In this document: piece by piece, positions 17,758 to 39,826 of the stretch
How the letters are laid out: each line of letters begins with the position of its first letter
How positions within the stretch are numbered: position 1 is the stretch's first letter
Assembly: GCA_028714955.1 (NCBI GenBank)
Contig: JAQTLK010000001.1
Span: 96,050-140,822 of the forward strand
Direction of reading: 5' to 3'
Length of the DNA stretch: 44,773 bases
DNA from: Sulfuricella sp.
GTDB taxonomy: Bacteria > Pseudomonadota > Gammaproteobacteria > Burkholderiales > Sulfuricellaceae
The notes under the pieces: model-generated
Seen by the model: only the letters and a program-made list of their open reading frames with translations
What the model was told of the DNA's origin: nothing
Databases searched by the model: none
Made by a program: the position numbers and the translations under genes

Positions 17758-18654
17758 ATGAAAATCCTTGTCTGGGATTTGCCCACGCGACTGTTTCACT
17801 GGCTGCTGGCGCTGAGTTTTGCGCTCGCCTACCTGAGTGCCGAGAAAGGAAACTGGCTTGAGGTACACGTTTTTTCCGGTTACCTGATGCTTGGCTTGCT
17901 GGCGTTCCGCCTGGCGTGGGGGTTCGTCGGCGCGCGCTATGCGCGCTTTTCTTCCTTTCGTTTCAGCTGCAAGGAAGGATTCGACTACCTGCAACAGGTT
18001 ATTGCGGGAACGCCCAGGCGCTACCTGGGCCATAACCCGGCGGGAAGTTGGGCGGTTTATCTGCTGCTGACATTGGCGTTTCTGGTCGGGTCGAGCGGAC
18101 TTTTTACGCTGGCCGGGCAGGAAGGGCTGGGGCCTCTGGCGGCATGGGTGCCATATGCCTCCGCCAAGACATTCAGGGAAATACATGAGGCCACGGTCAA
18201 TGCCATGCTGGCCATGGTGATCCTGCATCTGGCAGGTGTGGCGCTTGAGAGCTGGCGCCACCGCGAGAACCTGGCGCAAGCGATGCTCACCGGCAGCAAG
18301 GAGGGGAAACCCGAAGCCGCCATCTCCTCGCGGCATCTTTTCAGCGCACTGTCACTGCTTGCGGCAGTCATCGCGGGTGGTGCCTGGTACTTCAGTAGTG
18401 CGGCTGTTGCCGCCAGGGAGGGCAATGCAGGCGATAAAATCATGCGTTCCATTGATCCACGTGAAACCCCCTTGCGTATTACTGAAACGCCATACTGGCA
18501 AGGCAAGCACCGGCATATCGCGGCCAGCGTATGGCGCAGCCACGCGGTCGGTGCAAGGGCCAATTGCATTGCTTGCCACCACAACGCGGAACAGGGAAGT
18601 TTTGCCGCCAGCGCCATGCCGCGCGAGGTGGCCGCCAAGGCCGCCTTGCATTAG
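17758..18654 (+). CDS. Cytochrome b561 fused to a DHC-like haem c domain
   Basis: 298 aa. Residues 1-180 are a cytochrome b561-type membrane domain: WDLPTRLFHW with His14, HVFSGY with His37, EIHEATVNAM with His143 and ILHLAG with His157 as likely haem b ligands. A further membrane segment (about 192-214) then leads to a periplasmic tail with PLRITETPYWQGKH and the haem site CIACH at 270-274. That tail is clearly homologous to the second half of the preceding DHC protein, so the fusion likely provides a built-in c-type electron exit from the quinol-oxidising b subunit. The start, ATG at 17758, follows GGAAG. A second, unfused b561 protein is encoded at 36715-37296. Confidence 0.88.
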   Translation: MKILVWDLPTRLFHWLLALSFALAYLSAEKGNWLEVHVFSGYLMLGLLAFRLAWGFVGARYARFSSFRFSCKEGFDYLQQVIAGTPRRYLGHNPAGSWAVYLLLTLAFLVGSSGLFTLAGQEGLGPLAAWVPYASAKTFREIHEATVNAMLAMVILHLAGVALESWRHRENLAQAMLTGSKEGKPEAAISSRHLFSALSLLAAVIAGGAWYFSSAAVAAREGNAGDKIMRSIDPRETPLRITETPYWQGKHRHIAASVWRSHAVGARANCIACHHNAEQGSFAASAMPREVAAKAALH

Positions 18655-18686
18655 ACTGGCCCATATGACAACGAAGCCAGAATCTC

Positions 18687-19349
18687 ATGCGCCTGTTGCT
18701 TGTTGAAGACGATCCGCTGCTCGGAGATGGCATTTGCGTCGGTTTGTCGCAGGCCGGTTTCGTCGTGGACTGGGTGAAGGATGGCCTGGCCGCCAAACTG
18801 GCTTTGGAGACTGGCGATTATGCGCTAATGGTGCTCGATCTGGGCTTGCCCCGCCTGTCCGGCACGGAACTGCTGAAGTGGCTGCGCGGCACGGGAGACA
18901 ACACGCCGGTATTGATTCTTACCGCCAGGGATACGGTCGGGGACCGGGTGCGCGGCCTCGATGCGGGCGCCGATGATTATCTGGTCAAACCCTTCGACCT
19001 GGACGAACTGGCTGCGCGCATACGCGCCTTGCTGCGGCGGGTGGGCGGCCGCTCGACGCCGCTGATCGTTCATGGCTCGGTGCGGGTGGATCCGGCATCC
19101 CGCCGCGTGACGCAGGCGGGCGCCGTGGTGGACCTTTCTCCCAAGGAGTTTGCTGTCCTGCTGGATCTGCTGGAAAACGCCGGCCGCGCCCTGTCGCGCG
19201 AACGGCTGGAACAGAGCATTTACGGCTGGGGCGAGGAAGTGGAAAGCAACGCGGTGGAGGTTCACATTCATCATTTGCGCAAGAAACTTGGCGCCGAACT
19301 GATCCGCACCTTGCGGGGTGTCGGCTACTTGATCGATAAGGGCTCGTAA
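18687..19349 (+). CDS. OmpR-family response regulator (QseB-like)
   Basis: 220 aa. Receiver domain: MRLLLVEDDPLLGDGI with the acidic pocket, VLDLGLPRLSGTELL with the phosphoacceptor aspartate (Asp51), ILTARD and DYLVKPFDLDEL with the conserved lysine. The C-terminal winged helix ends LIRTLRGVGYLID, and the DNA-binding part contains SRERLEQSIYGW and ESNAVEVHIHHLRKKLG, which resembles the QseB/PmrA/TctD branch. The stop abuts the ATG of the kinase directly. It follows the SHP-DHC-b561 operon by 32 bases. The TTAAG repeats at 16765-16792 are a plausible target. The signal sensed is unknown. Confidence 0.92.
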   Translation: MRLLLVEDDPLLGDGICVGLSQAGFVVDWVKDGLAAKLALETGDYALMVLDLGLPRLSGTELLKWLRGTGDNTPVLILTARDTVGDRVRGLDAGADDYLVKPFDLDELAARIRALLRRVGGRSTPLIVHGSVRVDPASRRVTQAGAVVDLSPKEFAVLLDLLENAGRALSRERLEQSIYGWGEEVESNAVEVHIHHLRKKLGAELIRTLRGVGYLIDKGS

Positions 19350-20762
19350 ATGAACAAGCCCACTTCCCTGCGCGCCAAGCTGCTCCTGCTGCTGCTTGGC
19401 GCTGTCACCATGACGTGGATGGCCATCGCCCTGTTGACCTATTTTGACACGCGCCATGAGATCGACGAGATTTTTGACGCCCAGTTGGCCCAGTCCGCCA
19501 AGGTGTTGCTGGCCCAGGCCGTCCATGAAATCAGGGAGCAGCAGGGCGTTCATGGGGGCGTGGCGGCGGAGATTAAAACGGGTGACCACAAGTACGAACG
19601 CGAGCTTGCCTTTCAGGTTTGGGACAACAAGGGCCATCTGCTGATGCGCTCTTCCGGCGCGCCAGAGCGATCCTTGTCGCCCGGTTATGCGGCTGCCTCG
19701 CGCGCTGAAGATATGCGGCGCCACGCCCGCGGGCGTTTCGACGACAGCAAGATCGATGGCCAGTCCTGGCGCGTGTTCAGTCATTGGGACGAGGAGGAGG
19801 CCGTCCTGGTCCAGGTCGGAGAGCATAGCGAAGTGCGCCGGGAGCTCGCCGCCGGCGTGGCGGGGCGTCTGCTCGGCCCGCTGGCCGTGGGCTTGCCGGT
19901 TCTCGGCGTGTTGCTATGGGTCGCATTGGGGCGGGGACTGGCGCCGTTGCGCAAGGTCAATGCCGAGGTGGAAGCGCGCGATCCCGGTTACCTCGCGCCG
20001 CTGGCGAGCCAGGGGATTCCTGCCGAAATAGCGCCTCTGGTGAACTCCATCAACCGTCTCCTGACCCGCTTGGGCGAGGCGCTGGAGAATGAGCGCCGCT
20101 TCACAGCCGATGCCGCCCACGAGCTGCGCACCCCGCTTGCTGCCCTGAAAACGCAGGCTCAGGTGGCCTTGCGCGCGGAAGATGCCGGGCAGCGGCGCAC
20201 CGCGCTGGAAAACCTGATTCTGGGAACCGACCGCGCTACCCACCTGGTGGAACAACTGCTGACCCTGGCGCGCCTCGACCCGGCGGCAGAAAACGCTGCG
20301 ATAATCGAGCGTTGCGACCTTGCGGTAGTGGCCCGGCGCATTCTGGCGGAGCTCGCGCCGGCAGCGCTGGCCCGGCACATCGAACTTGAACTGATGGGAC
20401 CCGAGTCCGTCCCGGTCACCGGCAATTCCGCGATGCTCGGCATCCTGCTGCGCAACCTGGTGGACAATGCCATTTGCTATACCCCGCCCGGAGGCAAGGT
20501 GTGGGTGTCGGTTGGAGCCGGGAGGCTGGAAGTGGCGGACAGCGGGGCGGGCATTCCCGCCGCGGAACGGCAGCGGGTATTCGACCGCTTTTACCGTGTG
20601 CTGGGGAGCGGGGTGCCGGGCAGCGGTCTGGGTTTGTCCATCGTCAAACACATTGCCGATTTGCATGGCGCAGCCATAACCCTGGGGGAAGGCGAAAAAG
20701 GTGTCGGTCTTCGGGTGACGCTGGACTTTGTGCCCGAGCGCAAACAGCAACGGGCGCCGTAG
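19350..20762 (+). CDS. Sensor histidine kinase (QseC-like)
   Basis: 470 aa. Membrane segment at about residues 8-28, then a periplasmic domain to about 168, a second membrane segment (LGPLAVGLPVLGVLLWVALG) and a HAMP-like linker. The H-box is FTADAAHELRTPLAAL. The ATPase domain has the N-box NLVDNAICYTPPGG, G1 VADSGAGIPAAE and G2 GSGLGLSIVKHI. The QseC relationship is a branch resemblance; no catecholamine or autoinducer sensing should be assumed. It begins immediately after the regulator stop and ends in the loop of a hairpin at 20747-20772, convergent with the TonB receptor gene. Confidence 0.92.
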   Translation: MNKPTSLRAKLLLLLLGAVTMTWMAIALLTYFDTRHEIDEIFDAQLAQSAKVLLAQAVHEIREQQGVHGGVAAEIKTGDHKYERELAFQVWDNKGHLLMRSSGAPERSLSPGYAAASRAEDMRRHARGRFDDSKIDGQSWRVFSHWDEEEAVLVQVGEHSEVRRELAAGVAGRLLGPLAVGLPVLGVLLWVALGRGLAPLRKVNAEVEARDPGYLAPLASQGIPAEIAPLVNSINRLLTRLGEALENERRFTADAAHELRTPLAALKTQAQVALRAEDAGQRRTALENLILGTDRATHLVEQLLTLARLDPAAENAAIIERCDLAVVARRILAELAPAALARHIELELMGPESVPVTGNSAMLGILLRNLVDNAICYTPPGGKVWVSVGAGRLEVADSGAGIPAAERQRVFDRFYRVLGSGVPGSGLGLSIVKHIADLHGAAITLGEGEKGVGLRVTLDFVPERKQQRAP

Positions 20763-20796: not shown

Positions 20797-23085
20797 TCAG
20801 AACTTCACGTTGACGCCGGCATAGATCGAACGGCCCATGCCGGGAACAGCGATTCCATAAGGAGAACCACCTGTCGGAGGCATGGTTCTCCCCTGTCCCA
20901 CATAGGCGCCACCCAAAGGATAGTCATAGAGCCTGTCGAAGACATTGTCTATGCCCACATCAAACCGTGCTTTTTTCCACGTATAGCTGCTGCGCAGATT
21001 GAGCAAACCGTAGCCCGAGGTTTTAAGCTCGTTGCGAATTTGCGACACGTCATCCTTGGCGGCAACCATCTGGACTTCCGCGGTGTTGGTCCAGCTGCCG
21101 AGGTGTTGCACGACAGCCAGTTTCGCGTTCAGCGGCATGATGTTGTAGAGGTCGTCGTCGGCGCCGCTCGCGGTCTTCCCCCGGACATAATTCAGCATGC
21201 CGGTTGCCGTGAAGCTGCCATAAGCAGTATTTTTGGCCAGCGGGAAATAACCGGAAACATCCAGGCCGTAAAGGCGCGCATCCTGGTTAAGGTACTTGAG
21301 GAAGACGAAATTGTTGCTCGTCGTCTGCGCAGCCAGCGTGCAGGCACCGCCGCTGCCATCGGCGGCCGTGCAGCGCCGCGCATTGATGTAGTCCTGTACG
21401 TAGGTGAAGTACGGCGTGACTTTCAGTCCCCAGTTCTGCTGCTCGGCGTCATGCCAGTCCGCGGTGGCGCTGAGGGTGTGCGCCACCTCCGGCTTCAGGT
21501 CCACATTGCCAACATAGCCGTTGCCATCGCCTGCCGTATTGATCATGTTCATGGCCATGCCGCCTGTCGACCAGGCATAGCGTTCATAGAGGTTGGGCGA
21601 GCGGGTTTTGCGGGCATAGCCGAACTCGTAAGTCTTGCTGCTATCCTGGGTATAGCGCGCCAGCGCGGTCATGTCCCAGTTGTTGTCGGTGCGGCTGCGG
21701 TCGCTGGCATTGAATTTTGTCGCATCGGCCAGATACGTGGCGCCGGTGTTATAGCCCTGCACCGTGCCCGTATCCATCTTCACCGTTTCGCTGCGCACGC
21801 CTAGCTGGCTGAGCCATTGCGGAGACCAGCGCGCTTCCCATTCTGCAAAGGCGGCATAGCGATCCCGCTGACCATCATTGATATCCCAAAACGTATTAGG
21901 CCACATGCCCGCGCCCGAGGGGTCCCACCAGTCGCTGAAGCGGTAGCGTTGATATTCGCCGCCCACCCTGAGCGTGTCACGCGCTGAAAGCAGGATATCC
22001 GCCTTGACCAGCGCGCCGGTATTTCTTCCTTCCGTATCCATCGGCATGCCGCCAGCGAGCGGCTTTGCGCTGGCGGCGTTGTAGTACCAGTATTCCTTGT
22101 CCTCGAGGAAATCCATCTTGTGCCGCGTATGCTCGTGATACGCGCGCGCCTGCAAGGTGCCCCAGTCGTATTGGCCGGTATAGCGCAGATTGACCTGATT
22201 GCTCTTGTTGTCGGTCATGTCCATGCGCTGGTTCGGGTAGCCCTGGTAGGGGATGTGTTGATATCCCACCTTCAGTTCGACCAGGTGGTTTTCATTGCGC
22301 AGCGCAAAGCCGAGCGAATGGTTGTCGGATTCATACGCGGTAGAGCCCACTTCGTCGCCAGCCAGCCAGGGTACCGATACGGCGGGCGCCTGTGGCGGGT
22401 TTATATAGGCCGGGCCTGCCTTCTTGAAGTCTCCGCCGGCTTTGTAGTTGTCGGACTGGACGGTCGAGCCACTGTAGGTCATGCTCAGATTTTCGTTTGC
22501 GATCGTCGCCGAAACATTGCCGCCCGTGGCATTGCCGTTGCTGCGATAGAAAGCGCCGGCCTCGCCCTTGAGCAGCATTCCCTGCCCTGCCGCGGCAAAC
22601 TCCGGTGCCGGGGAATTGACCACGATGGTGCCGCCAATGCTGTCGCCGCCCAGGCTCACCGGCGCGATGCCGGAAAATACCTGGATACTGCGCACGTTGC
22701 TGGGATCGATGTAGGAGAGAGGCGGATTCATGTGGTTGCCGCAGGCGGAAATCAGGTCCATGCCATCGACCTTGATGCGCAGCCGGTCATCCCCCAGGCC
22801 GTGGATCACCGGCAGGCCGGACACGCCGCCGTTGCCGTACAGGCTGACGCCGGGCACATCGCTCAGCAGGCTGGCGGTATCGCTGGTGGCCGAGCGCTTG
22901 GGCGCCAGGCTGGCCTCATCGATCAGGGTTGCGCCCACCGGCTGGCTGGCGTCGACTTTCGACGCGCTGACGGTGACTTCCGGCAGCGTGGTGGCCTTGT
23001 CCTCGGCGGCAGCCACATTGGCGCCAAACGCGGCGGGCAAGGTCATGGCAACCGCGAGTGCGATGCTCTTTCTGGTAAACATCAT
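20797..23085 (-). CDS. TonB-dependent receptor, putative copper type
   Basis: 762 aa outer-membrane receptor with signal peptide (to about residue 27, ANVAAAED), TonB-box-like LPEVTVSAS, a plug domain (VPGVSLYGN, IHGLGDDRLRIKVDGMD, IQVFSGIAPVSLGGDSIGGTIV) and a beta barrel ending in YAGVNVKF. Residues Cys115-Gly-Asn-His-Met119 lie in the plug motif SACGNHMNPPLSYID, and His322-x-Met324 lies in RHKMDF of the barrel. In the copper receptor OprC of Pseudomonas, a CxxxM pair and an HxM pair together bind copper, so the pattern here suggests Cu binding. Start at 23085 (or 23082, the next codon); AGGGAG precedes it but is buried in a hairpin. Its own upstream region carries a RegA-like box. Confidence 0.85.
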   Translation of the reverse strand: MMFTRKSIALAVAMTLPAAFGANVAAAEDKATTLPEVTVSASKVDASQPVGATLIDEASLAPKRSATSDTASLLSDVPGVSLYGNGGVSGLPVIHGLGDDRLRIKVDGMDLISACGNHMNPPLSYIDPSNVRSIQVFSGIAPVSLGGDSIGGTIVVNSPAPEFAAAGQGMLLKGEAGAFYRSNGNATGGNVSATIANENLSMTYSGSTVQSDNYKAGGDFKKAGPAYINPPQAPAVSVPWLAGDEVGSTAYESDNHSLGFALRNENHLVELKVGYQHIPYQGYPNQRMDMTDNKSNQVNLRYTGQYDWGTLQARAYHEHTRHKMDFLEDKEYWYYNAASAKPLAGGMPMDTEGRNTGALVKADILLSARDTLRVGGEYQRYRFSDWWDPSGAGMWPNTFWDINDGQRDRYAAFAEWEARWSPQWLSQLGVRSETVKMDTGTVQGYNTGATYLADATKFNASDRSRTDNNWDMTALARYTQDSSKTYEFGYARKTRSPNLYERYAWSTGGMAMNMINTAGDGNGYVGNVDLKPEVAHTLSATADWHDAEQQNWGLKVTPYFTYVQDYINARRCTAADGSGGACTLAAQTTSNNFVFLKYLNQDARLYGLDVSGYFPLAKNTAYGSFTATGMLNYVRGKTASGADDDLYNIMPLNAKLAVVQHLGSWTNTAEVQMVAAKDDVSQIRNELKTSGYGLLNLRSSYTWKKARFDVGIDNVFDRLYDYPLGGAYVGQGRTMPPTGGSPYGIAVPGMGRSIYAGVNVKF

Positions 23086-23151: not shown

Positions 23152-23166
23152 GCGGCATATCGTCGC
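23152..23166. promoter_or_regulatory. RegA-like box upstream of the copper-type receptor
   Basis: GCGGC (23152-23156), five bases, GTCGC (23162-23166), within the near-palindrome TGCGGCATATCGTCGCA. It lies 67-81 bases upstream of the start codon at 23085. The form matches the GCGRC-N5-GNCGC pattern known for RegA/RegR-family regulators, two of which are encoded at 34220 and 36139. Confidence 0.6.
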
Positions 23167-23216: not shown

Positions 23217-23621
23217 TCATTGCGCCGTGGTGACGAATCCGAGCTTGCTGATGCCGGCGCGATTGATCGCGGCCATGACCTGCGCCACGCGGCCGTACTT
23301 TACGTTCTCGTCGGCGTGGAGCTGGACGTTCATGTCAGGTGTTGCGGCGTGCATTTTTTTCAGCTCGCTTTCCAGCATGTCGAAATGGATCGGTCGCTGG
23401 TCGATATAGACCGTGCCCTGGACATCGATGGAGATCTGCACCGGCTGGGCTTGCTTGAGCGGGTCGACGGCCGCCGTCTTGGGCAGGTCGACCTTGACCG
23501 CCTGCATCAGCAGCGGCGCGGTGACGATGAACACGATCAGCAACACCAGCATCACGTCCACCAGCGGCGTGACGTTGATGTCCGACATGGCGGATTGTTC
23601 GGAGGACGTGTGCAAGGCCAT
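23217..23621 (-). CDS. exbD: ExbD, TonB motor subunit
   Basis: 134 aa. One membrane segment near the N-terminus carries the proton-relay aspartate in INVTPLVDVMLVLLIVFI (Asp22), followed by a periplasmic domain ending GISKLGFVTTAQ. ExbD and ExbB convert the proton-motive force into movement of TonB. It is last in the tonB-exbB-exbD order and starts 12 bases after exbB. The copper-type receptor gene begins 131 bases downstream on the same strand, with its own box and hairpin, so it may be expressed both from read-through and separately. Confidence 0.93.
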   Translation of the reverse strand: MALHTSSEQSAMSDINVTPLVDVMLVLLIVFIVTAPLLMQAVKVDLPKTAAVDPLKQAQPVQISIDVQGTVYIDQRPIHFDMLESELKKMHAATPDMNVQLHADENVKYGRVAQVMAAINRAGISKLGFVTTAQ

Positions 23622-23633
23622 GGCGATCTCTCC

Positions 23634-24290
23634 CTATTTCACGCTGAAGTCGGACTTGAGCGCGAGATTCAGGAAGTCGTTGGCAAAGGACTCCAGTTCC
23701 GCCACGTACAGGCGCACCTGGCGCAAGCCATAGTTGTAGGCGAGCACGGCGGGGATGGCGGTGGCGATGCCGATGGCGGTGGAGATCAGCGCCTCGCCAA
23801 TCGGCCCGGCCACCACGTCAAGTCCGGCCGAGCCGGTGTGGCTGATGTCCTGCAAGGCATGCATGATGCCCCAAACCGTGCCGAACAGGCCGACAAAAGG
23901 CGCGGTGGAGCCAATGCTCGCCAGCACCATCAGGCCGCTTTCCAGTCGATGCTGCTCCTTTTCAACCTGGCTGCGCAGGCGGCGTTCCAGCACCGTCTGT
24001 TTGTCGCCGCTGTTTTGCAGGCTGTTCGCGCCGCCGCTTTCGATTTCACGCAGCATTTCGAACCCCGCCCGGCACAGTTGCGCGAGCGGGCCTTGCGCCT
24101 GCCGGGCGGCGGCTTCGGCTTCGGTCAGATTGCGCGCGTTCCAGAAACTTTTGGTGAAGGCACGGTTTTGCCGCGACAGCCGCCACTGCAGCCAGCCCTT
24201 CATCACGATCAGCGTCCATGAAATTACCGAGAAAGAGATCAGGAGCCACAGGGTTGCGGCCACGATGGGAGAGGTTGAATGTCCAAACAT
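23634..24290 (-). CDS. exbB: ExbB, TonB motor subunit (MotA/TolQ/ExbB family)
   Basis: 218 aa with three membrane segments: about 10-32, and the characteristic pair in LASIGSTAPFVGLFGTVWGIMHAL and GPIGEALISTAIGIATAIPAVLAYN. These are the MotA/TolQ/ExbB proton-channel signatures. The N-terminus has no long periplasmic extension, so it is the short ExbB type. The ATG at 24290 is preferred over an in-frame TTG at 24296. The gene starts inside or directly at the end of tonB (which stops at 24293), showing tight coupling. Confidence 0.93.
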   Translation of the reverse strand: MFGHSTSPIVAATLWLLISFSVISWTLIVMKGWLQWRLSRQNRAFTKSFWNARNLTEAEAAARQAQGPLAQLCRAGFEMLREIESGGANSLQNSGDKQTVLERRLRSQVEKEQHRLESGLMVLASIGSTAPFVGLFGTVWGIMHALQDISHTGSAGLDVVAGPIGEALISTAIGIATAIPAVLAYNYGLRQVRLYVAELESFANDFLNLALKSDFSVK

Positions 24291-24292
24291 GT

Positions 24293-24961
24293 TCAATTTT
24301 CCAATTTAAAGGTGATCGGTACTTCCACCCAGGCGGCGATGGACTGGCTGCCCTTTCTGGCAGGGACGAAGCGCCATTTTTTGACTGCTTCCAGCGCGGC
24401 CTGGTCTAGCAGCTCATAGCCGCTGGTTTTTCTCAGTTCCACCCGGTTGCAGGTCCCGTCCGCCAGCACCTCGGCGCGCACCAGAACCCGGCCCTCGATG
24501 CCCCTGCGCCGCGCCATGGTGGGGTAAACCGGCGGCGGGTTGTTGAGGTAGGCGGCGCTGAAGCGCGGGGCTTCCACTACCGGTTCCGTTGTCGCCGCCA
24601 CGGAAGGCGCGGCTGGTGCGGGCGGCGTTGGCGCAACGGCAACCGGCACCGGTTCGGGCGCCTGTTCCATGACCCTTTCCGGAACCGGCTGCGCCTGCAG
24701 CAACTGGCGCACCACGGGCTTTACCCGGCGCGGCATCCTGGGCTCGGGTTTGGGGGGTTCGGGCTGCTTCGGCGTGATTTTGGGCTGTGGCGGCAGAGGA
24801 GGCGCCAGCAGTGCCACCTCGATCACCGTCAGCGGCCGGGGCGGAACAACGTCGCTCTTGAAATGAGCAAAACCCCACCATGCGGTGGCATGCAGAAGCA
24901 CGACCAGGCCGAACGAGGGCAACCAGCGCGGCCACTCCCGCTCGGATTCGACTTGCACCAT
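24293..24961 (-). CDS. tonB: TonB, energy-transducing protein
   Basis: 222 aa. One N-terminal membrane helix (LPSFGLVVLLHATAWWGF, with a His as in TonB's functional helix), a long Pro/Lys/Glu-rich periplasmic spacer (PPLPPQPKITPKQPEPPKPEP), then the C-terminal TonB fold from AYLNNPPPVYPTMARRRGIEG to the end. It spans the periplasm and touches the TonB box of receptors. The ATG at 24961 is preferred; an in-frame TTG at 24985 would add eight residues. It sits 31 bases after the SafE-like gene in a single minus-strand run, so this motor is likely dedicated to the two receptors here. Confidence 0.9.
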   Translation of the reverse strand: MVQVESEREWPRWLPSFGLVVLLHATAWWGFAHFKSDVVPPRPLTVIEVALLAPPLPPQPKITPKQPEPPKPEPRMPRRVKPVVRQLLQAQPVPERVMEQAPEPVPVAVAPTPPAPAAPSVAATTEPVVEAPRFSAAYLNNPPPVYPTMARRRGIEGRVLVRAEVLADGTCNRVELRKTSGYELLDQAALEAVKKWRFVPARKGSQSIAAWVEVPITFKLEN

Positions 24962-24992
24962 TGCGTATTCCAAATACGATCCCAAACGGCGC

Positions 24993-25664
24993 CTAGAATA
25001 GCATAATCAACCGGCGCAGACCGATGGCGATCAGCACGATGGCGGCCCCCCAGCGCAGCCATTTGCCCAGCCACTGCCGCCCTTCGCGCAGATTGCGTCC
25101 GAACAGGCCCAGCAGGGGCACAATCACCAGCAACGGCGTGAGTGCCGCGCCCAGGCCGAATGACAGGCCGTAGCCCACACCCGACAATGTGCCGCCGGAG
25201 AGCGCACACACCGCCAGGAGAGAGGCCAGTGGCGCGCATGGCGTCAGGCTCAGGGAGAAGCCGAGCAGAAATGGCGGCGTGCTTTCCCCGCGTTGCGCTG
25301 CGCCGCATGCCGCCTTGCGCCGCGCCGGGCGCAACAGCCAGAACCCGGCGCCGATGCTGGACGCGCCAATGAAGGCATTGCCCACCCCGCTGCTGAGGGC
25401 GTGGGTCAACCACACACCGAACGCCCCAGCCAGTCCACCAAGCAGGCTATAAGCCGTTATCCGGCCGAGCACGAAAATACCGGTATCAAACAGTGCCTCG
25501 CGGTTGCTGCCGCCATGTCCCAGCACCCAGGTACCCATGAAGGGCAGGCAGGTGACGGTGCAAGCGGTCAGCCCCATGGAAACACCCAGTAGCCAGACCG
25601 AGAAAAAACTGAGGGTTTCAGGCAACAGGGGCGCTGTGCCGGGCATGATGACATCAAGCATCAT
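24993..25664 (-). CDS. TauE/SafE- or DsbD-like membrane protein
   Basis: About 223 aa, mostly hydrophobic, with six likely membrane segments. Two cysteine motifs stand out: TACTVTCLPF in the first helix (Cys35, Cys39) and SLTPCAPL in the middle (Cys143). Their pseudo-symmetric placement recalls DsbD/CcdA-type transporters and the related heavy-metal/SafE proteins, which move reducing power or metal across the inner membrane. The start at 25664 is chosen because GGGG lies six bases upstream; it overlaps the polyferredoxin stop. Being between polyferredoxin and tonB genes, it may carry electrons or a metal ion. Precise function is not established. Confidence 0.75.
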   Translation of the reverse strand: MMLDVIMPGTAPLLPETLSFFSVWLLGVSMGLTACTVTCLPFMGTWVLGHGGSNREALFDTGIFVLGRITAYSLLGGLAGAFGVWLTHALSSGVGNAFIGASSIGAGFWLLRPARRKAACGAAQRGESTPPFLLGFSLSLTPCAPLASLLAVCALSGGTLSGVGYGLSFGLGAALTPLLVIVPLLGLFGRNLREGRQWLGKWLRWGAAIVLIAIGLRRLIMLF

Positions 25665-26706
25665 TTGCCCCGGATCCAGGTTTGTGCGGTGCGGTGGCCT
25701 TGATTGTGCCATCGGGCATCTCACCCTTCATGCGTTGCCGGTAATATTCACGCGAGGATTTGAACAGCACGATCGGCCCCCACTTCATCTGGATCACGCC
25801 GTCATCCGGGCAGAATTCGACGCAGCGGCCACACAGGGTACAGTCCTCGTGGAATGCCTTGGCACCGTGCTCACGGGCAATTTCATGGATATCCATCGGG
25901 CAGGCTTTGGCGCAGATGCCACACTTGTCGCATTTGTCGTGCTGCTTCTTCACCAATCGCATCGGCGAGAGGCGCTGGAACACGGCGTTGAATGACAGCA
26001 TCGGGCAGATGCGGCAAAACGGCTGGCGCACGGCGAATGCTGCAATCAGGATGAAGCCGGCCAGGGTATTGGCGATGGCGCCAAGGGTAAAAGCAATACC
26101 GTCGCCGGTGCGCAGCGCGATTTGCTCGGTACTGCCGGTGAGCAGGGTGGTGGCGATGCGCGACGGGCAGACATCGCAGTAGGGGTTACCCAGACTGTGC
26201 GGCGTTATACCGAGGCCGGTCAGGAGCGGCAGGGCGAGCACCAGCACGATCAGCATCAGCCATTTCACCGGCCTTACCTTGGATACATTGCCATTTTCTA
26301 AACGGTGCAGCGGCAGGTTGAACCTGCGTCCGAGCTTGTTGACCAGATCCTGGATCGTTCCGAGCGGACAGACCCAGCCGCAGAATGCCTTGCCCAGCAC
26401 AAAGAAGAAGGTAAAGAATGTCAGTAGCGTAAACAGCAGCGGCAGGAACATCTGGAAGGTGATTTGCTGCGCCTTGGCCAGTGCTTCGCCAATGCGATGG
26501 TGAAGCAGATGCTGTGTCGAGATCAGCGCGCAATAGGCACCGTTCTGCTGATCGTAGGCGCAGGATAGTGCCGGCAGGGCGTTGGACACCTTTTCTGCCA
26601 TGTAGAAACCGACCACGTTGGAGCCATAAACCGTCAGCAGCAGCATGGCGATCTGGACGAACAGGCGGAAGCGGCCGAGGGTGGGGAACATTGTCTTGAA
26701 CATCAT
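25654..26706 (-). CDS. NapH/NosR-type membrane polyferredoxin
   Basis: 350 aa. Four to six membrane helices with conserved cysteine pairs: CGWVCPLGTIQD, YCDVCPSR and FCRICPML, as in NapH, NosR and RdxA/CcoG. Near the C-terminus two [4Fe-4S] clusters follow: CDKCGICAKACP and CTLCGRCVEFCP. Such proteins draw electrons from quinol and feed periplasmic acceptors. No nap, nos or cco genes are nearby; its neighbours are a receptor, a DUF4198-like protein and tonB, so the acceptor is probably the imported substrate or a partner here. It overlaps both neighbours by a few bases. AAGGAGG ends two bases before ATG 26706; the next codon, ATG 26703, is equally possible. Confidence 0.88.
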   Translation of the reverse strand: MMFKTMFPTLGRFRLFVQIAMLLLTVYGSNVVGFYMAEKVSNALPALSCAYDQQNGAYCALISTQHLLHHRIGEALAKAQQITFQMFLPLLFTLLTFFTFFFVLGKAFCGWVCPLGTIQDLVNKLGRRFNLPLHRLENGNVSKVRPVKWLMLIVLVLALPLLTGLGITPHSLGNPYCDVCPSRIATTLLTGSTEQIALRTGDGIAFTLGAIANTLAGFILIAAFAVRQPFCRICPMLSFNAVFQRLSPMRLVKKQHDKCDKCGICAKACPMDIHEIAREHGAKAFHEDCTLCGRCVEFCPDDGVIQMKWGPIVLFKSSREYYRQRMKGEMPDGTIKATAPHKPGSGANDA

Positions 26707-27668
26707 GCCTCCTTGGCGCCGTTGTGGTTATTGGCTTTCCTGCGGCGTAGCAGCGGCGTGGCCAGCAGCATGCCGAGCAGGCCGAAGCCGATGCCGGCAG
26801 AAAGATTCTTGCCGCGCGCCGCGTCAGCCGAATAAGTGTAGTTGAAAGCGGTCAGGAAGCGCTTTCCACCGTCGTCATGCACTACCGCAAGCACGAATTT
26901 CGCCCGGCGTGGACCGTGGTCGTGGCCGCCCTCCCCCGGTTTTTCTTCTGCTGGTTTGAAGTCGCGCGGGAACAGGACCGTCACCATGCCCTTTTCGTCG
27001 CTGATGAAAGACGTCTTGGTACCGAACTCCGTTTCCATTCGAACCACCTTTTTCGCCAGTGGTTGACCGTTGAAGCGCAGCAGAAATGGCCATTTCTCGC
27101 TCTCACGCCAGGCACCATGTTCACGCGGCAGTGGCTGGGGAATGATCTCCAGTTCATTTTTCTGCTCCAGCAGCAACCTGGTCGGCGCCTCGCCCGGATT
27201 GCCGAAGAAATAGGCGGTGGAGGCTACTGTCACCTTACTTGCCGATTCCTCGCGCGCGCTCACCCAGTGGTAGTTGCCGATCTTGGGCGTCACCGCTTCG
27301 ATCCGGGTTCCTTCAGCGCTTGCCGGAAATTGGCGATGTAGCCGGTCAGCAGGACCGCCGGGGGCGAATACCTCCAGTTTGGCGGGCCTGATGTTTTGTG
27401 CCGCAAACTTTGCCGTTGCGCGATCTCCATTCCTGTCCATCATTGGCGTGAGCAACGGGTAATTGGTCCACTCCCGCCCCTGCCATTTGCCTTGGCCGAC
27501 AGCAGCGCCCGGGCTGCCGGCCTGTGCCTGGGCATGGTCATGCTGTTTGTGTTGGGTGCTTGCCTCGGTGGCGACCGGCGCCCTTCCCGAGTGTTCGTCC
27601 TCCGCCATGGTGGAGGTGCAAATCAGCACCAGGGTCGCCGCCAGGCCCAGTTTGGTTGAGGGTTGCAT
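26703..27668 (-). CDS. Periplasmic DUF4198-like protein with His-rich stretches
   Basis: 321 aa. Signal peptide (MQPSTKLGLAATLVLICTSTMA), a His-rich segment (HKQHDHAQAQ, about residues 40-49), a domain with LELEIIPQP-like NELEIIPQPLPREHG and RFNGQPLAKKVVR, FISDEKGMVTVLFP, a second His cluster (GGHDHG) and a C-terminal helix (LSAGIGFGLLGMLLATPLL) followed by RRRK, so it is anchored in the inner membrane with its bulk in the periplasm. The pattern resembles DUF4198/NikM-like domains found with nickel or cobalt uptake systems. I suspect metal or metal-complex binding. It starts 24 bases after the receptor gene and overlaps the polyferredoxin start. Confidence 0.72.
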   Translation of the reverse strand: MQPSTKLGLAATLVLICTSTMAEDEHSGRAPVATEASTQHKQHDHAQAQAGSPGAAVGQGKWQGREWTNYPLLTPMMDRNGDRATAKFAAQNIRPAKLEVFAPGGPADRLHRQFPASAEGTRIEAVTPKIGNYHWVSAREESASKVTVASTAYFFGNPGEAPTRLLLEQKNELEIIPQPLPREHGAWRESEKWPFLLRFNGQPLAKKVVRMETEFGTKTSFISDEKGMVTVLFPRDFKPAEEKPGEGGHDHGPRRAKFVLAVVHDDGGKRFLTAFNYTYSADAARGKNLSAGIGFGLLGMLLATPLLRRRKANNHNGAKEA

Positions 27669-27692
27669 GGATGTTCTCCTGTTCCTGACCGG

Positions 27693-29975
27693 TTAGAAGC
27701 TTGCCGACAAGCCAGCGAACCAGGTACGCGGCCGCCCGACGATGATGGAAAGGTCATTGGCGTTGTATATATTGTCGTATGCGCCGGTAATGTAGTCAGG
27801 CTGGTCGTTGGTGCCGCGAGCGGTGACCCAGTACTTGCGGTCGAACAGGTTATCCACGCGGGCAAAGAACGACCATTTGCTGCCCCAAATCCCTTTTTGC
27901 TTGATGTCATAATTGGCCAGCAAGTTAAACAGCGTGTGGCCCGGTAGTTTTTCCTGTTCGATTTCATCCGCGTAGGACCAGGATTTGGCGTCCATTTCCA
28001 GGCTCAGGTGGAACTGGCTGGTGGGCTGCCAGTGGCCTGTCAGGTCAAGCTGGTGCCGGGGCACGCGAGGCACCTGATTGCCGGTATTGTTGAAGTGCAC
28101 CATGGTCGGGGTTGTGGCATATACGCTGCCGAGCACCTGGTAGAAATTGTCGTACTTGGTGAAATAAGCCTGGATATAGCTGTAGGCCAGCTCGAAAGCA
28201 TATTCGCGCTTGCGGTCGCTTTTCAGCGCCAGCTCGAAGCCGCGGTTGCGCACGCCGCCGATATTGTCATATTTTTCCTGAATGGTCGGGCTTGATCCCC
28301 CGTACTGGCCGGTGGTGGCCATGATGTAATCCTTGCGGTCGATCTGGAAGACCGAAGCATCCAGGTCCATTCCCACGCCGAGCCATTCGGTCTTGGTGCG
28401 CAGGCCGAACTCAAGGTTGAGGGATTCTTCCGGCCGCAGGTTTTCGTTGTTTGCGGTTTTTCCGTTGGACGGAGAAAGTGTGCCGCGGTAAAGCTGGTCT
28501 ACCGTTGGTGTACGGAAGCCGGTTGATAGATTGCCATATAGGTCCATGTCGTGGCTGAGCGCATAATTCAACCCTGCTCGCCAGGACGTGTTCTCGAACG
28601 ATTTGGAGCGGCTGATCGAGGCGTTGCCGTTGTCTTTCCCCGGCTTGGCGGAATAATCCAGGTCCAGTTCATCGTAACGCCCATTGAAAGTCAGCATCCA
28701 GTCAGTGGCTGGCTTGAATTTGAGCTCGCCATAGACACCATTGACCGCTTCGTCGGTATTGTCATCGGTCATCACGGTGCCCGCCACCACCGAAGCGCCC
28801 GGTGCGCAGGCCAAACCCTGTTTGCGGCTGCAATAATCCACTCCTGCCGTGTTCAACTGTTGGTATTCGTTGCGGCGTATATCCAGGCCGGCCAGCCAGC
28901 CGACGTTGCCTGCCGAGGAGCGCCATTCCCCTTTTGCGCCGCGTTGCACCTGCTCCCAGTTGTTGAGGGTGGTGTAGGCTTCGTAATATCCCGGGTCGGT
29001 TGGCAACACGCTCTTGCCGTTGGGGTAAAGCGATTGCGGCGCCGACCAGAAATTCGTATTGTCGCGATACTCGTACCCCATCAGCAAAATGTTGCTTTTC
29101 GGGTCATAATTGTTGGAATAGGTCATGTTGAGTTTCTGCAGGTCAACATCGTACTTGCGCGAGTAGTCGCGCCCGAGCACGCCGCGCGGATCCAGTTCGG
29201 CCTGAGTTGCACCTTTTACCGTGCCGTGCTTGTCCTTGTTGCGCTGGGACTTTTCGAAGCCGAAGGTGAGATCGCTGGTGTCGGAGAGATACAGGTTGAA
29301 GTTGCCATCGAGATAATCGGTCTTGTAGGCCGACTGAAAATAGTAGTCATCGCCCGCGCGGTGCGAGGCTTGGATGTGGCCATTACCTTTCTCGCCCGAA
29401 AAACCCACGCGCGCCATCTGTTTTTCGTAGTCCCACGAACCCGCTTCCGCGCCGACGGTCGTTCCGGCGTACTTGGCGCCGCGCTTGGTGGTAATGATCA
29501 CCGCTCCGGATAAGGCGTCTTCGCCGAACAGGTAGGATGCGCCGCCCTTGATCACCTTGATCGATTCGATGTTGTCGATGTCGATATTGACCTTTCCTGT
29601 TCGCTCGAACACCGGCACGCCGTCGATCACGATCGCCACCCCTGGTTTTTCGCCCATGTAGCGCTGGTTTTCAATGCCGCGCAGCTTGATCTTGATCTCG
29701 TCGCCGCTTGACAGGTCCGCCGTCACTCCTGGAATGGAGCGTAGCACCTGGATCATGTTCTCGATGTGGGAATCATCCACTTCCTTGCCGCTGATCACGC
29801 TGATGCTCGACGGTTCGTCGCGTTTGGATTCGAAACGGTCGTCGATGGTGGTCGAGGAGACGACTACCTCGTCCATTTTTTGCGGCGTGCCAGGCCCCGT
29901 TTCGGCCAGGGCGCTCCCCATGGCGCCAAGGTAAAGGGCTGCGACCAGATGGTGGACCGGTTTAACATTCGGCAT
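27693..29975 (-). CDS. TonB-dependent receptor leading the polyferredoxin operon
   Basis: 760 aa outer-membrane receptor. Signal peptide to about residue 24 (SALAET), TonB box DEVVVS (35-40), a plug domain (IPGVTADLSSGDEIKIKLRG, VAIVIDGVPVFERTG, IKVIKGGASYLFGEDALSGAV) and a barrel ending in FAGLSASF. GGGAGAAAG precedes the ATG. FecA/ferrichrome-type features are not evident; CirA-like architecture is nearest. The ligand is unknown; a metal or metal chelate is likely from the DUF4198-like and polyferredoxin partners. It is the first gene of a seven-gene minus-strand run (receptor, DUF4198-like, polyferredoxin, SafE-like, TonB, ExbB, ExbD). A RegA-like box sits 102-116 bases upstream. Confidence 0.88.
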   Translation of the reverse strand: MPNVKPVHHLVAALYLGAMGSALAETGPGTPQKMDEVVVSSTTIDDRFESKRDEPSSISVISGKEVDDSHIENMIQVLRSIPGVTADLSSGDEIKIKLRGIENQRYMGEKPGVAIVIDGVPVFERTGKVNIDIDNIESIKVIKGGASYLFGEDALSGAVIITTKRGAKYAGTTVGAEAGSWDYEKQMARVGFSGEKGNGHIQASHRAGDDYYFQSAYKTDYLDGNFNLYLSDTSDLTFGFEKSQRNKDKHGTVKGATQAELDPRGVLGRDYSRKYDVDLQKLNMTYSNNYDPKSNILLMGYEYRDNTNFWSAPQSLYPNGKSVLPTDPGYYEAYTTLNNWEQVQRGAKGEWRSSAGNVGWLAGLDIRRNEYQQLNTAGVDYCSRKQGLACAPGASVVAGTVMTDDNTDEAVNGVYGELKFKPATDWMLTFNGRYDELDLDYSAKPGKDNGNASISRSKSFENTSWRAGLNYALSHDMDLYGNLSTGFRTPTVDQLYRGTLSPSNGKTANNENLRPEESLNLEFGLRTKTEWLGVGMDLDASVFQIDRKDYIMATTGQYGGSSPTIQEKYDNIGGVRNRGFELALKSDRKREYAFELAYSYIQAYFTKYDNFYQVLGSVYATTPTMVHFNNTGNQVPRVPRHQLDLTGHWQPTSQFHLSLEMDAKSWSYADEIEQEKLPGHTLFNLLANYDIKQKGIWGSKWSFFARVDNLFDRKYWVTARGTNDQPDYITGAYDNIYNANDLSIIVGRPRTWFAGLSASF

Positions 29976-30075: not shown

Positions 30076-30107
30076 TGCGACATGATGCCGCGCGTCACGA
30101 TGTCGCA
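30076..30107. promoter_or_regulatory. RegA-like box and inverted repeat upstream of the receptor operon
   Basis: GCGAC (30077-30081), five bases, GCCGC (30087-30091) forms a RegA-like box. It is nested in a larger inverted repeat, TGCGACAT (30076-30083) and ATGTCGCA (30100-30107). It lies about 100-130 bases upstream of the receptor start codon at 29975. A second site may be formed by the right arm. Confidence 0.55.
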
Positions 30108-30180: not shown

Positions 30181-30663
30181 TTAACGCGCACCCGTTCCCT
30201 GGTTCATCTCTGCCAGTTGCCGTTGCCACTTGTCCCATTGCGCCATGTCATGATGCATGGCGTGGTGCTTGCGATTCATGGCGAACCATTTCTGGGCCTC
30301 CTTTTCGTTCGCGGCAACACCTTCGCCGCGCAGGTACATCAGCCCGAGGTAGTATTGCGACTCCTTGTCACCCTGCTCTGCCGCCTTGCGGAACCACCTG
30401 GCGGCTTCGCCGGCATTCTTCGGCGCGCCGTCGCCATCCTGCAGCATGCGGGCAATGTTGTATTGGGCATCCACCTGGCCTTTCTCGGCCAGCGCCAGCC
30501 AGATCTTGAATGCGGTTTGGTAATCGCGCATGCGGTGCGCCGCTGCGCCGCGTTCGAATTCCTGTTCGACGCTGTTGGGGGCGGCGGCGGCGTTGAACGC
30601 GATGGCAAGTAGCAACGGCGCGCACAGCGCGGCGACGAAGCGAGAGAAGTTGGTTTGAATCAT
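30181..30663 (-). CDS. Sel1-repeat periplasmic protein
   Basis: 160 aa. Signal peptide (RFVAALCAPLLLAIAFNAAAA), then two to three Sel1-type repeats: A..WLALAEKGQVDAQYNIARMLQDGDG and A..WFRKAAEQGDKESQYYLGLMYLRGEG. A charged tail with HHAMHHDMAQW follows. Sel1 repeats form protein-binding solenoids; no enzyme activity is implied. AAGGAG precedes the ATG at 30663. An open frame continues upstream but lacks a good start, and the cydX transcript lies there. It stands alone after the cyd genes, with its own RegA-like box 58-72 bases upstream. Its partner is unknown; the bd oxidase or the receptor operon are candidates. Confidence 0.82.
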   Translation of the reverse strand: MIQTNFSRFVAALCAPLLLAIAFNAAAAPNSVEQEFERGAAAHRMRDYQTAFKIWLALAEKGQVDAQYNIARMLQDGDGAPKNAGEAARWFRKAAEQGDKESQYYLGLMYLRGEGVAANEKEAQKWFAMNRKHHAMHHDMAQWDKWQRQLAEMNQGTGAR

Positions 30664-30720: not shown

Positions 30721-30735
30721 GCGACTTGATGCCGC
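30721..30735. promoter_or_regulatory. RegA-like box upstream of the Sel1 gene
   Basis: GCGAC, TTGAT, GCCGC. It lies 58-72 bases upstream of the start codon at 30663. The following bases (GCGGCATGCTGCCGCA) add a second GC-rich half-site arrangement. Its left part is nearly identical to the boxes at 30077 and 33978. Confidence 0.55.
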
Positions 30736-30770
30736 GCGGCATGCTGCCGCAGGCCGCAATTCCGGGTGGG

Positions 30771-34219: not shown

Positions 34220-34774
34220 ATGCTGCCTGAAAGAGAGAAACAAGAGCGCCCCAGCCTGTTGCTGGTGGACGATGACAAGACCTTGTGTCGCGTGATGGCG
34301 CGCGCGCTGGCGAAGCGCGGATTCCGGGTGAGCCAGGCGCGCGATGTGGATTCGGCCCTGTTGCTGGCCGAGGCTGAGCCGCCGGACTATGCCGTGGTGG
34401 ACCTCAAACTGCCGGTGCGTTCCGGGCTGGAGCTGATCAAATACCTGAAAGAATTGAAACGGAATACCCGCATCGTGATGCTGACCGGTTTCGCCAGCAT
34501 TGCTACCGCAATCGGGGCGATCCGGCTGGGTGCCACGCATTATCTGGCCAAGCCTGCCGACGCGGACGAGATCGTTGCCGCGCTGCATCGCGATGGCGGC
34601 GATGCGAATGCCGCCGTGGCCGCGTTACCCGTATCGGTCGAGCGCTTGAAATGGGAGCATATCCAGAAAGTGCTGGCGGAGAACGGAAACAACATTTCCG
34701 CTGCCGCCAGGTCGCTCAACATGCATCGTCGCACCTTGCAGCGCAAGCTGGCCAAGCATCCCGCACCGGAATAG
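34220..34774 (+). CDS. regA: RegA/PrrA/ActR-type response regulator, first copy
   Basis: 184 aa. Receiver domain with acidic pocket (LLLVDDDKT), phosphoacceptor Asp61 in YAVVDLKLPVRSGL, IVMLTGFASIATAI and YLAKPADADEI; then a short Pro-containing linker and a Fis-type helix-turn-helix (NNISAAARSLNMHRRTLQRKL). The near-invariant MHRRTLQRKL helix defines RegA. It regulates respiratory genes in response to redox state in many proteobacteria. It precedes regB by 93 bases, while a second, similar regulator follows regB. The start ATG has an imperfect ribosome site. Identity of the DNA-binding helix with the second copy suggests shared targets. Confidence 0.93.
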   Translation: MLPEREKQERPSLLLVDDDKTLCRVMARALAKRGFRVSQARDVDSALLLAEAEPPDYAVVDLKLPVRSGLELIKYLKELKRNTRIVMLTGFASIATAIGAIRLGATHYLAKPADADEIVAALHRDGGDANAAVAALPVSVERLKWEHIQKVLAENGNNISAAARSLNMHRRTLQRKLAKHPAPE

Positions 34775-34793
34775 CGCAGCCGCAACGGGGCGC

Positions 34794-34808
34794 GCGACGA
34801 TTTGCCGC
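34794..34808. promoter_or_regulatory. RegA-like box upstream of regB
   Basis: GCGAC (34794-34798), GATTT, GCCGC (34804-34808). It lies 60-74 bases upstream of the regB start at 34868, at the same distance as the other boxes, suggesting autoregulation of regB (and perhaps the second regA). Confidence 0.55.
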
Positions 34809-34867
34809 ATGCCACAAGGGAGCGGGTTGGGACTACAATTCGTCGGCTTGTTCACGGATTTGAATGC

Positions 34868-36136
34868 ATGGTCGGACATAACGCGCTCATTCAGGCGCCA
34901 TCAAACAGCAACTTGCGGCGCATTTTCCTGCTGCGCAGCATCGAGATCGGCGGCTTGCTACTGGCCGTCGTGCTGGCCTGGCACGGGCTGGAATTGCCTT
35001 TGCCGCTGCTGCCCATCGCGGTGGTGATCGGGTCGCTGGTGCTGGTGAACCTGTTTACCTGGTGGCGTTTGCGCCAGGACTGGCCGGTGGCAGATGGGGA
35101 GTTTTTTACCCAATTGCTGGTGGATGTCGTCGCCATTACCGTGCTGCTGTTTTATGCCGGCGGCTCGACCAATCCGCTGGTCTCGTTTTACCTGGTGCCC
35201 CTGGTCATCGCCGCCATCACGCTTCCCGCTGTCTACACCTGGGCCATGGCGCTGCTGACAGCCGGTTGCTATACCCTGCTGATGTTCAATTATTATCCGC
35301 TGATGCCGAAAAGCGGCGATTACAGCACCGCGATTTACATGCACCTCACCGGCATGTGGCTGACTTTCGTCCTTTCCGCATTCCTCATCGCCTTTTTCGT
35401 GGTGCGCATGGCCGCCGCCATCAAGGAGCGCGACCGGCAGCTTGCCGCGGCGCGCGAGGAAACGCTGCGCAACGAGCGCATCGTGGCGCTTGGCACCCTG
35501 GCGGCAGGGGCGGCCCACGAACTGGGCACGCCGCTCGCCACCATGGCGGTGGTGACGCGCGAACTGCAGCGTGAATATGGCGCGAATCCGGACCTGGCGG
35601 AAGACCTGCAACTGCTGCGCGAGCAGGTGGACGGTTGCAAGCACATTCTTTCCAGCCTGCTGGCTTCCGCCGGCCAGACACGCATGGAAGGCGCGGCGGG
35701 CGCCGCGCTGGATGTCTATCTCGACGAAGTGCTGGAGAAATGGCGCCTGATGCGCCCCGGCGTGAGCATGACCGTGACGTGGCTGGGCGCCGGCCCCGCC
35801 CCGCACATCATGACTGACCAGACATTGGGCCAGGCGCTGCTCAATTTGTTTAACAATGCCGCCGATGCCTCGCCCGATAACGTGGAGATCGAAGGGGGCT
35901 GGGATGAAACCGGGATCCGTCTGCAGATCCGGGACCGGGGGCCTGGCCTGACTCCCGACGCCGTGCAGCAAGCCGGCCGGCCTTTCTATACCACCAAGGG
36001 CCACGGCATCGGCATCGGACTTTTCCTCGCCAACGCCACCATCGAGCGGCGCGGCGGCAGCGTGACGCTGCGCAACCGCGAGGGCGGTGGCGCGGTGACG
36101 GAAATCCGCTTGCCTATTTCAAATCTTCAGGCCTGA
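34868..36136 (+). CDS. regB: RegB/PrrB/RoxS-type redox sensor histidine kinase
   Basis: 422 aa. Six membrane helices in the first 180 residues, with the quinone-binding motif GGSTNPL (98-104, GGxxNPF in others). The H-box is LAAGAAHELGTPLAT (His217), and Cys257 in VDGCKHI lies 40 residues later, as do His225 and the redox-active Cys265 in Rhodobacter RegB. The ATPase domain has NLFNNAADASP, IRDRGPGLT and HGIGIGLFLAN. It signals the redox state of the quinone pool or oxygen. The start at 34868 gives the family N-terminus; an ATG at 34802 would overlap the RegA-like box. It ends two bases before the second regulator. Confidence 0.94.
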   Translation: MVGHNALIQAPSNSNLRRIFLLRSIEIGGLLLAVVLAWHGLELPLPLLPIAVVIGSLVLVNLFTWWRLRQDWPVADGEFFTQLLVDVVAITVLLFYAGGSTNPLVSFYLVPLVIAAITLPAVYTWAMALLTAGCYTLLMFNYYPLMPKSGDYSTAIYMHLTGMWLTFVLSAFLIAFFVVRMAAAIKERDRQLAAAREETLRNERIVALGTLAAGAAHELGTPLATMAVVTRELQREYGANPDLAEDLQLLREQVDGCKHILSSLLASAGQTRMEGAAGAALDVYLDEVLEKWRLMRPGVSMTVTWLGAGPAPHIMTDQTLGQALLNLFNNAADASPDNVEIEGGWDETGIRLQIRDRGPGLTPDAVQQAGRPFYTTKGHGIGIGLFLANATIERRGGSVTLRNREGGGAVTEIRLPISNLQA

Positions 36137-36138
36137 CC

Positions 36139-39574: not shown

Positions 39575-39826
39575 ATGACTACCTATGTCGAGATTGGAGC
39601 CTACGATGCCAAAACACATTTCCCGGAGTATTTGAGAAAGGTGCGCGCGGGGATGGCATTTAGAATTACCAATCGGGGGGAGCACGTCGCGGACCTGGTG
39701 CCGCCAGGAACAACGGAGAAACGTGATGGCGCCAAGGCGGCAGAGCGAATGCAGCAGTTCGTTCAGGCACACCCGGCGATCAAGGATGTCGATATCAAGG
39801 CACTGATCGAGGAAGGGCGCGACTGA
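39575..39826 (+). CDS. Phd/YefM-type antitoxin
   Basis: 83 aa. The N-terminus, VEIGAYDAKTHFPEYLRKV, then FRITNRGEHVADLVPPG, is the Phd/YefM fold that dimerises and binds DNA. The C-terminal helix (KRDGAKAAERMQQFVQ, then ALIEEGRD) would wrap the toxin. AAAGGGA precedes the ATG by about nine bases. The stop overlaps the first base of the toxin start, the standard arrangement for balanced production. The upstream palindrome at 39525-39540 is the likely self-regulation site. Confidence 0.88.
   Translation: MTTYVEIGAYDAKTHFPEYLRKVRAGMAFRITNRGEHVADLVPPGTTEKRDGAKAAERMQQFVQAHPAIKDVDIKALIEEGRD

Follow-up and report, generated by a model that had tools for sequence, protein, structure and literature searches.

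A conserved TonB-dependent receptor operon with a NapH-type polyferredoxin and a DUF4198-like protein in Sulfuricella is a candidate copper uptake system

We analysed a stretch of 44,773 nucleotides (the window) from Sulfuricella sp. (contig JAQTLK010000001.1 of assembly GCA_028714955.1, positions 96,050 to 140,822), in which a sequence-only reading had proposed a TonB-dependent uptake operon with built-in membrane electron transfer. The host, a sulfur-oxidising denitrifier, has a 2.5-Mb draft genome; among named organisms, Sulfuricella, Sulfurimicrobium and related Betaproteobacteria are closest to it. All seven open reading frames of the minus-strand operon (23217-29975) were found, in the order proposed and with short gaps or overlaps. 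The first gene encodes TonB-dependent receptor 1 (TBDT1, 27693-29975; plug 72 bits, barrel 173 bits in Pfam). It is followed, after a gap of 24 nucleotides, by the gene for a DUF4198-like protein (26703-27668), which overlaps by 4 nucleotides the gene for a NapH-type polyferredoxin (25654-26706). The gene for a SafE/DsbD_2 membrane protein (24993-25661), taken from the ATG start conserved in relatives, overlaps the polyferredoxin gene by 8 nucleotides, which suggests translational coupling. TonB (24293-24961 or 24985; TonB_C 85.8 bits) lies 31 or 7 nucleotides beyond SafE, the ExbB gene (23634-24296; MotA_ExbB 120 bits) overlaps that of TonB, and ExbD (23217-23621; ExbD 112 bits) ends the operon after a gap of 12 nucleotides. 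Pfam thus agrees with the TonB receptor plug and barrel, Fer4_5 with two 4Fe-4S sites, DsbD_2, TonB_C, MotA_ExbB and ExbD assignments. The seven genes hold as a unit, the limits of which had been drawn too narrowly: an OprC-type receptor (20797-23085) and RegB/RegA-like regulators (34220-36696) also belong to it.

The gene set is conserved as a block. The DUF4198-like protein, used as the query against 150 related genomes, was matched in 18 of them, and among 17 relatives whose loci were retrieved the polyferredoxin gene adjoins the DUF4198-like gene wherever the contig extends far enough. The polyferredoxin as query returned the identical 18 of 150 genomes plus one match of 34% identity with an in-frame stop (G005:C1:62766-63755, locus L141), located in a genome of the same genus that has no DUF4198-like gene. 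Scanning 84,980 species genomes with an alignment of the DUF4198-like family gave 80 loci, most of them betaproteobacterial, mainly in Sulfuricellaceae, Gallionellaceae and Rhodocyclaceae; single cluster loci lie outside these families, for example in Magnetococcales and Thiotrichales. The polyferredoxin gene comes directly after the DUF4198-like gene in all 78 of the 80 loci with room for it, and the SafE gene is next in 76 of the 76 with room. The concern that the polyferredoxin might usually be found elsewhere and be here by accident is thereby removed, and the DUF4198-like, polyferredoxin and SafE genes prove to be fixed parts of a cluster beside the receptors. This linkage and the same 18 genomes recovered by both queries speak for a real system. 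Its first receptor varies: orthologues of TBDT1, 46-87% identical and beside the same genes, are present in many loci, and a receptor of another subfamily (about 700 amino acids) takes this place in many Rhodocyclaceae. The hosts include iron-oxidising, sulfur-oxidising and denitrifying species, many of them iron-oxidising Gallionellaceae. A plasmid search gave no match to the DUF4198-like protein and one match, of 28% identity, to the polyferredoxin.

The operon is followed after 131 nucleotides, on its own strand, by the gene for a second receptor, TBDT2 (20797-23085, minus strand), of the OprC/NosA type. TBDT2 carries a CxxxM motif (ACGNHM) and an HxM motif (HKM, residue 322), the combination that experiments have established as the OprC copper site (PMC8610252). 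OprC is its best match in the PDB (4e-20), with CxxxM aligned exactly in the phmmer alignment; against NCBIfam TIGR01778 it scored 109.4 bits, below the curated 472.45. Both motifs are kept in all 21 OprC-type receptors covering the site beside the 80 clusters (20 loci), and these receptors form two subgroups, 51-81% and 23-31% identical to TBDT2. TBDT2 homologues were present in 12 of the 18 genomes with the cluster versus 23 of the 132 without it (p = 3e-5, uncorrected for relatedness), and in 11 of the 12 genomes with both they lie within about 12 kb of the cluster. The gene neighbourhoods of TBDT2 homologues that stand alone were not informative, in contrast to their promoters (see the operator described below). 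Convergent with TBDT2 are a cytochrome b561-like gene and a QseBC/PmrAB-like response regulator and kinase (17758-20762), a trio that also occurs near an OprC-type receptor and TonB-ExbBD genes in loci L055 and L179. For TBDT1, the best curated models are siderophore and haem receptors, below cut-off, and its AlphaFold2 model has PqqU and FecA as nearest folds, the fold search returning only general siderophore, pyrroloquinoline quinone (PQQ) and citrate receptors.

The polyferredoxin has Fer4_5 and two 4Fe-4S sites (8 cysteines) by Pfam and ends after its ferredoxin domain, with no C-terminal Ig-like domain. All of its 16 cysteines are invariant across 42 sequences: eight serve the two cytoplasmic [4Fe-4S] sites, four lie in NapH-type motifs and four are extra. 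According to hydropathy and the NapH topology, the extra C49, C59, C177 and C180 are on predicted periplasmic loops together with H69 and the likewise invariant H66 and H70, and these residues may form a periplasmic metal or redox site. The insertions bearing them are missing from the five relatives compared (the NapH, the CcoG and two further NapH-like proteins of the same genome, and E. coli NapH). The absence of nap, nos and cco genes noted from the sequence holds for the window but not for the genome, which has napGH, a nosZ-type cluster and ccoG, ccoP and ccoN elsewhere. These nap, nos and cco loci carry NapH-like proteins of their own; counting NapH and CcoG, four further NapH-like proteins are encoded outside the window. 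The CcoG-like protein is encoded on contig 19, where a gene for a cytochrome c oxidase subunit adjoins it, and napGH is on another contig than the operon. The window polyferredoxin, which scored 81 bits with the curated NapH model (cut-off 234), is a separate paralogue. On contig 30 (G000:C30), NapG/NapH-like and ABC-ATPase genes accompany nosZ, and a further polyferredoxin is encoded next to a MoxR/NorQ-like ATPase.

The DUF4198-like label was supported only in part. Against Pfam DUF4198 (PF10670) the protein scored 16.2 bits, below the cut-off of 34, and a search of the host genome with this family gave no match. Its AlphaFold2 model (pLDDT 82.7) combines a periplasmic domain rich in beta structure with a membrane helix at the C-terminus (residues 289-320), and in Foldseek the top solved match was Zcp with Co, Zn or Cu bound (E 2.6e-09), with a Ni-bound Ideonella DUF4198 protein, 9gcb, also matched (E 3e-07, probability 1.00). 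The protein is thus, by predicted fold though not by the Pfam cut-off, a divergent DUF4198-fold protein. In a 65-sequence alignment, the motif P-x-P-R-E-H-x3-R, which includes H184, is invariant apart from one residue conserved at 90% or more, and H251 and H134 are 80-85% conserved. The His-rich N-terminus is variable among relatives, the invariant histidine being H184 in the PREH motif; by eye, the likely cleavage site of the window protein is not followed directly by a histidine, and many relatives have His-rich motifs nearby. The predicted structure would suit a putative metal catcher in the periplasm, membrane-anchored at its C-terminus. The SafE protein matches Pfam DsbD_2 (PF13386) with 65.7 bits (cut-off 24.9), and its C55 and C59 (CxxxC) and C163 (PC), numbered from GTG 25724 rather than from the conserved ATG start, are kept in 37 of 37 aligned sequences.

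Reading of the cluster promoters revealed a palindromic operator, GYGRCA-N3-TGYCRC, often in tandem. In the window, a tandem copy, GCGGCATCATGTCGC / GCGACATCGTGACGC, lies upstream of TBDT1 (30077-30106), a copy with one mismatch lies about 80 nucleotides upstream of TBDT2 (23152-23166), and a further tandem is found at 30721-30750 between cydB and a Sel1-repeat gene. The latter gene (30181-30630) sits between cydAB and the operon, and several relatives likewise have Sel1 genes next to the cluster. With at most one mismatch, the operator preceded 50 of the 66 cluster receptors versus 1.6 in shuffles, a count that uses the same sequences in which the operator was discovered; the later tests are independent of them. 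OprC-type receptors, including stand-alone ones in genomes free of the cluster, had the operator upstream in 21 of 35 cases versus 0.4 expected. The exact pattern occurs nine times in the host genome (control, four): upstream of this operon, PCuAC, an operon with SCO1, ccoN and nosZ, between cydB and the Sel1-repeat gene, and at three further sites that look like chance, two of them inside coding frames. Two of the three relatives scanned have intergenic operators upstream of nosZ, a COX2 gene, the TBDT1 operon and other receptors, the TBDT1 operon being divergent from a RegB-like kinase at its site; the third, G013, had operator sites at none of these. No copA, cus or cop resistance gene was seen directly behind operator sites. 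Consensus scans for Fur, Zur, NikR and CueR upstream of the 66 receptors gave no clear enrichment, with a mean of 10.6 Fur-box matches versus 10.1 in shuffles. Perfect FNR-like sites (TTGATnnnnATCAA) were observed upstream of the first receptor in L046 and L071, the former without the operator and the latter with both. Of the 18 genomes that have the cluster, 15 carry nosZ, versus 20 of the 132 that lack it; outside the family the figures are 3 of 6 versus 13 of 122.

The operator resembles listed RegR boxes, for example TGCGACATCGGCGGC upstream of fixK (PMC4064962), and RegA of Burkholderia controls nosZ and oxidase genes (PMC8191878). The window encodes, on the plus strand, a RegA/PrrA/ActR-like response regulator (34220-34774; NF033791, 196 bits, cut-off 250), a RegB/PrrB-like histidine kinase (34802-36136; NF033792, 286 bits, cut-off 350) and a second RegA-like response regulator (36139-36696; NF033791, 196 bits, cut-off 250). 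The RegB/RegA NCBIfam models are the best family for each of the three proteins, though below curated scores, and the GGSTNPL of the kinase is one residue off the GGxxNPF quinone motif. Judged by these similarities, the operator is likely bound by a RegA-type regulator, with the first RegA-like protein of the window (34220-34774) as the candidate binder.

Together, these data lead us to favour, as probable though well short of certain, the view that the operon is a TonB-dependent copper uptake system with its own quinol-driven reductase, serving the cbb3 oxidase and nitrous oxide (N2O) reductase. That the substrate is a metal, as tentatively proposed earlier, agrees with the DUF4198-like fold and the neighbouring receptors; sequence features further suggest that the metal is probably copper, because of the OprC-type receptor with CxxxM/HxM and the operator common to copper-enzyme genes. 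Copper would cross the outer membrane perhaps as a Cu(II) chelate via TBDT1 and as ionic copper via the OprC-type TBDT2, both receptors being powered by the dedicated TonB-ExbB-ExbD. The membrane-anchored DUF4198-like protein would take up or strip periplasmic copper, and the polyferredoxin would pass quinol electrons through its Fe-S centres to the Cys/His site on the periplasmic face, reducing Cu(II) to Cu(I). SafE/DsbD_2 may carry Cu(I), or thiol electrons, by means of the cysteines of its CxxxC and PC motifs. The copper would be used by the cbb3 oxidase, N2O reductase and the chaperones PCuAC and SCO1. A RegB/RegA-like redox system would turn on the locus along with the genes for these enzymes and chaperones. 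We infer the metal for TBDT1, the identity of the regulator and every step of electron or metal transfer. The more specific proposal, an undescribed copper route from the outer to the inner membrane with a NapH-type cupric reductase (periplasmic Cys4-His3), a DUF4198-type catcher, a DsbD_2-type Cu(I) carrier and a nosZ/cbb3 redox regulon, is put forward tentatively, being somewhat more doubtful than assured.

Several observations weigh against copper. The nearest folds of TBDT1 are PqqU and FecA, and it has no Cys/Met metal site beyond an invariant M107; since the first receptor belongs to a different subfamily in many Rhodocyclaceae, the imported form may also differ. TBDT2 adjoins only about one locus in four and has a promoter of its own, 16 of the 66 cluster promoters yielded no operator, and IsDUF4198 prefers Ni and gains no stability with Cu (PMC12537917). 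The copper argument is also weakened somewhat because the operator fits a RegA-type regulator of respiration: nosZ and ccoN could share it as respiratory genes and not for copper, and the copper-specific part of the regulon is PCuAC, the SCO1 operon and the OprC-type receptors. Part of this evidence would suit an iron system, in which TBDT1 imports a ferric siderophore or citrate and the polyferredoxin reduces periplasmic Fe(III), as in Fur-regulated PepSY/DUF2271/DUF4198 clusters. The receptor models and folds of TBDT1, the many iron-oxidising Gallionellaceae among the hosts and the induction by iron limitation of DUF4198 genes near iron-responsive receptors in Alteromonas and Caulobacter all speak for iron. 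However, Fur boxes are not enriched upstream, the operator is common to copper genes and OprC-type receptors, and the second receptors next to clusters bear the copper signature, which leaves iron unlikely.

PqqU as the nearest fold of TBDT1 would also be compatible with a thiol-redox or respiratory module, in which a NapH-like and DsbD_2 electron route to the periplasm acts on a substrate imported by TBDT1, such as an organic cofactor, under RegBA co-regulation. The DsbD_2 similarity with conserved transmembrane cysteines and the RegA-type operator with its RegB/RegA-like genes fit such a module, but it is quite unlikely, as it leaves unexplained both the metal-binding fold of DUF4198 and the fact that the operator also precedes OprC-type receptors and genes for copper chaperones. 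That the DUF4198-like protein hands Ni, Co or Zn to an importer while the polyferredoxin serves another step seems very unlikely, although Ni is the metal held most tightly by the solved DUF4198 protein (PMC12537917) and Zcp, the nearest fold, also binds Zn and Co. Uptake of these metals needs no reduction, so the invariant polyferredoxin would be unexplained; in addition, Zur and NikR sites are not enriched, an Rfam scan of the window from 16 to 36 kb found no match and hence no cobalamin or NiCo riboswitch, the cluster has no metal ABC or energy-coupling factor (ECF) transporter genes, and the N-terminal histidine of Ni-DUF4198 is not evident by eye in the window protein. Least credible to us is copper detoxification or resistance instead of acquisition: the copper-binding features are compatible with it and, in Dechloromonas, the cluster is followed by resistance-nodulation-division (RND) efflux genes, but a receptor powered by TonB-ExbBD imports, and the operator is common to copper-using enzymes and chaperones with no copA, cus or cop gene directly behind its sites.

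Literature searches, whose coverage excluded most subscription papers, found no description of this gene set, which appears to be undescribed. Its components resemble parts of known systems, and the design of a receptor with periplasmic reduction has precedents in PepSY/DUF2271/DUF4198 clusters and CrtA/CrpH. TBDT2 is like OprC/NosA in its aligned CxxxM and HxM and is matched best by it in the PDB, but the OprC paper describes no reductase module (PMC8610252), TBDT2 is below the TIGR01778 cut-off and TBDT1 lacks the signature. CrtA of Bordetella is a TonB-dependent copper receptor adjoining a putative periplasmic copper reductase, CrpH, the two serving haem-copper oxidases (PMC12914433, PMC13038864); CrpH is a haem PepSY (PepSY_TM) protein, whereas the present operon has Fe-S NapH-type, DUF4198-like and DsbD_2 partners. 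The flavin-linked PepSY/DUF2271/DUF4198 clusters share a secreted DUF4198 protein, a membrane electron-transfer protein and a TonB receptor (PMC8238504, PMC7190382, PMC3751524), but the operon has no PepSY, DUF2271, ApbE or Fur box and its carrier is an Fe-S polyferredoxin. The cupric reductase CcoG is likewise a membrane Fe-S protein with Fer4_5-type motifs and reduces Cu(II) (PMC7558416); unlike it, the polyferredoxin is encoded outside ccoGHIS, lacks the Ig-like domain, is 22% identical to the genome's own CcoG and has extra Cys/His on predicted periplasmic loops, the proposed reduction being periplasmic and not cytoplasmic. With the quinol dehydrogenase NapH it shares the four-helix core, two CxxxCP-type motifs and a cytoplasmic 2[4Fe-4S] domain, but it is 25% identical to E. 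coli NapH, is not accompanied by napG or napA and has two insertions, with C49/C59/H66/H70 and C177/C180. FtrD, a component of the FtrABCD iron system, is a polyferredoxin as well. FtrABCD of Bordetella and Burkholderia is also a metal-uptake operon (PMC5681537), whereas the operon here has no P19, cupredoxin or FTR1 permease and instead has a TonB receptor and DUF4198-like and DsbD_2 proteins.

In Sulfuricella relatives, an extra TonB receptor is repeatedly followed by a BNR-repeat gene (about 410 amino acids) and a small gene that Pfam does not match (L031:13019-14745 and L029:3846-5584), and in G003 (L232) this extra receptor also bears the operator. An open reading frame at 39826-40248 of the window resembles, by eye, a VapC-type PIN-domain toxin.

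Little is known of how Gram-negative bacteria obtain copper; few TonB-dependent routes are on record, and most of the steps that come after the receptor are missing. If the copper reading is true, a fixed receptor-chaperone-reductase-carrier set in about 80 species, sharing one operator with nosZ and ccoN, would tie the supply of copper to the removal of N2O and to micro-oxic respiration, and NapH-type Fe-S proteins would join the known ways of reducing imported metal. The probable beneficiary of this copper supply, N2O reductase, is a copper enzyme that destroys the greenhouse gas nitrous oxide.

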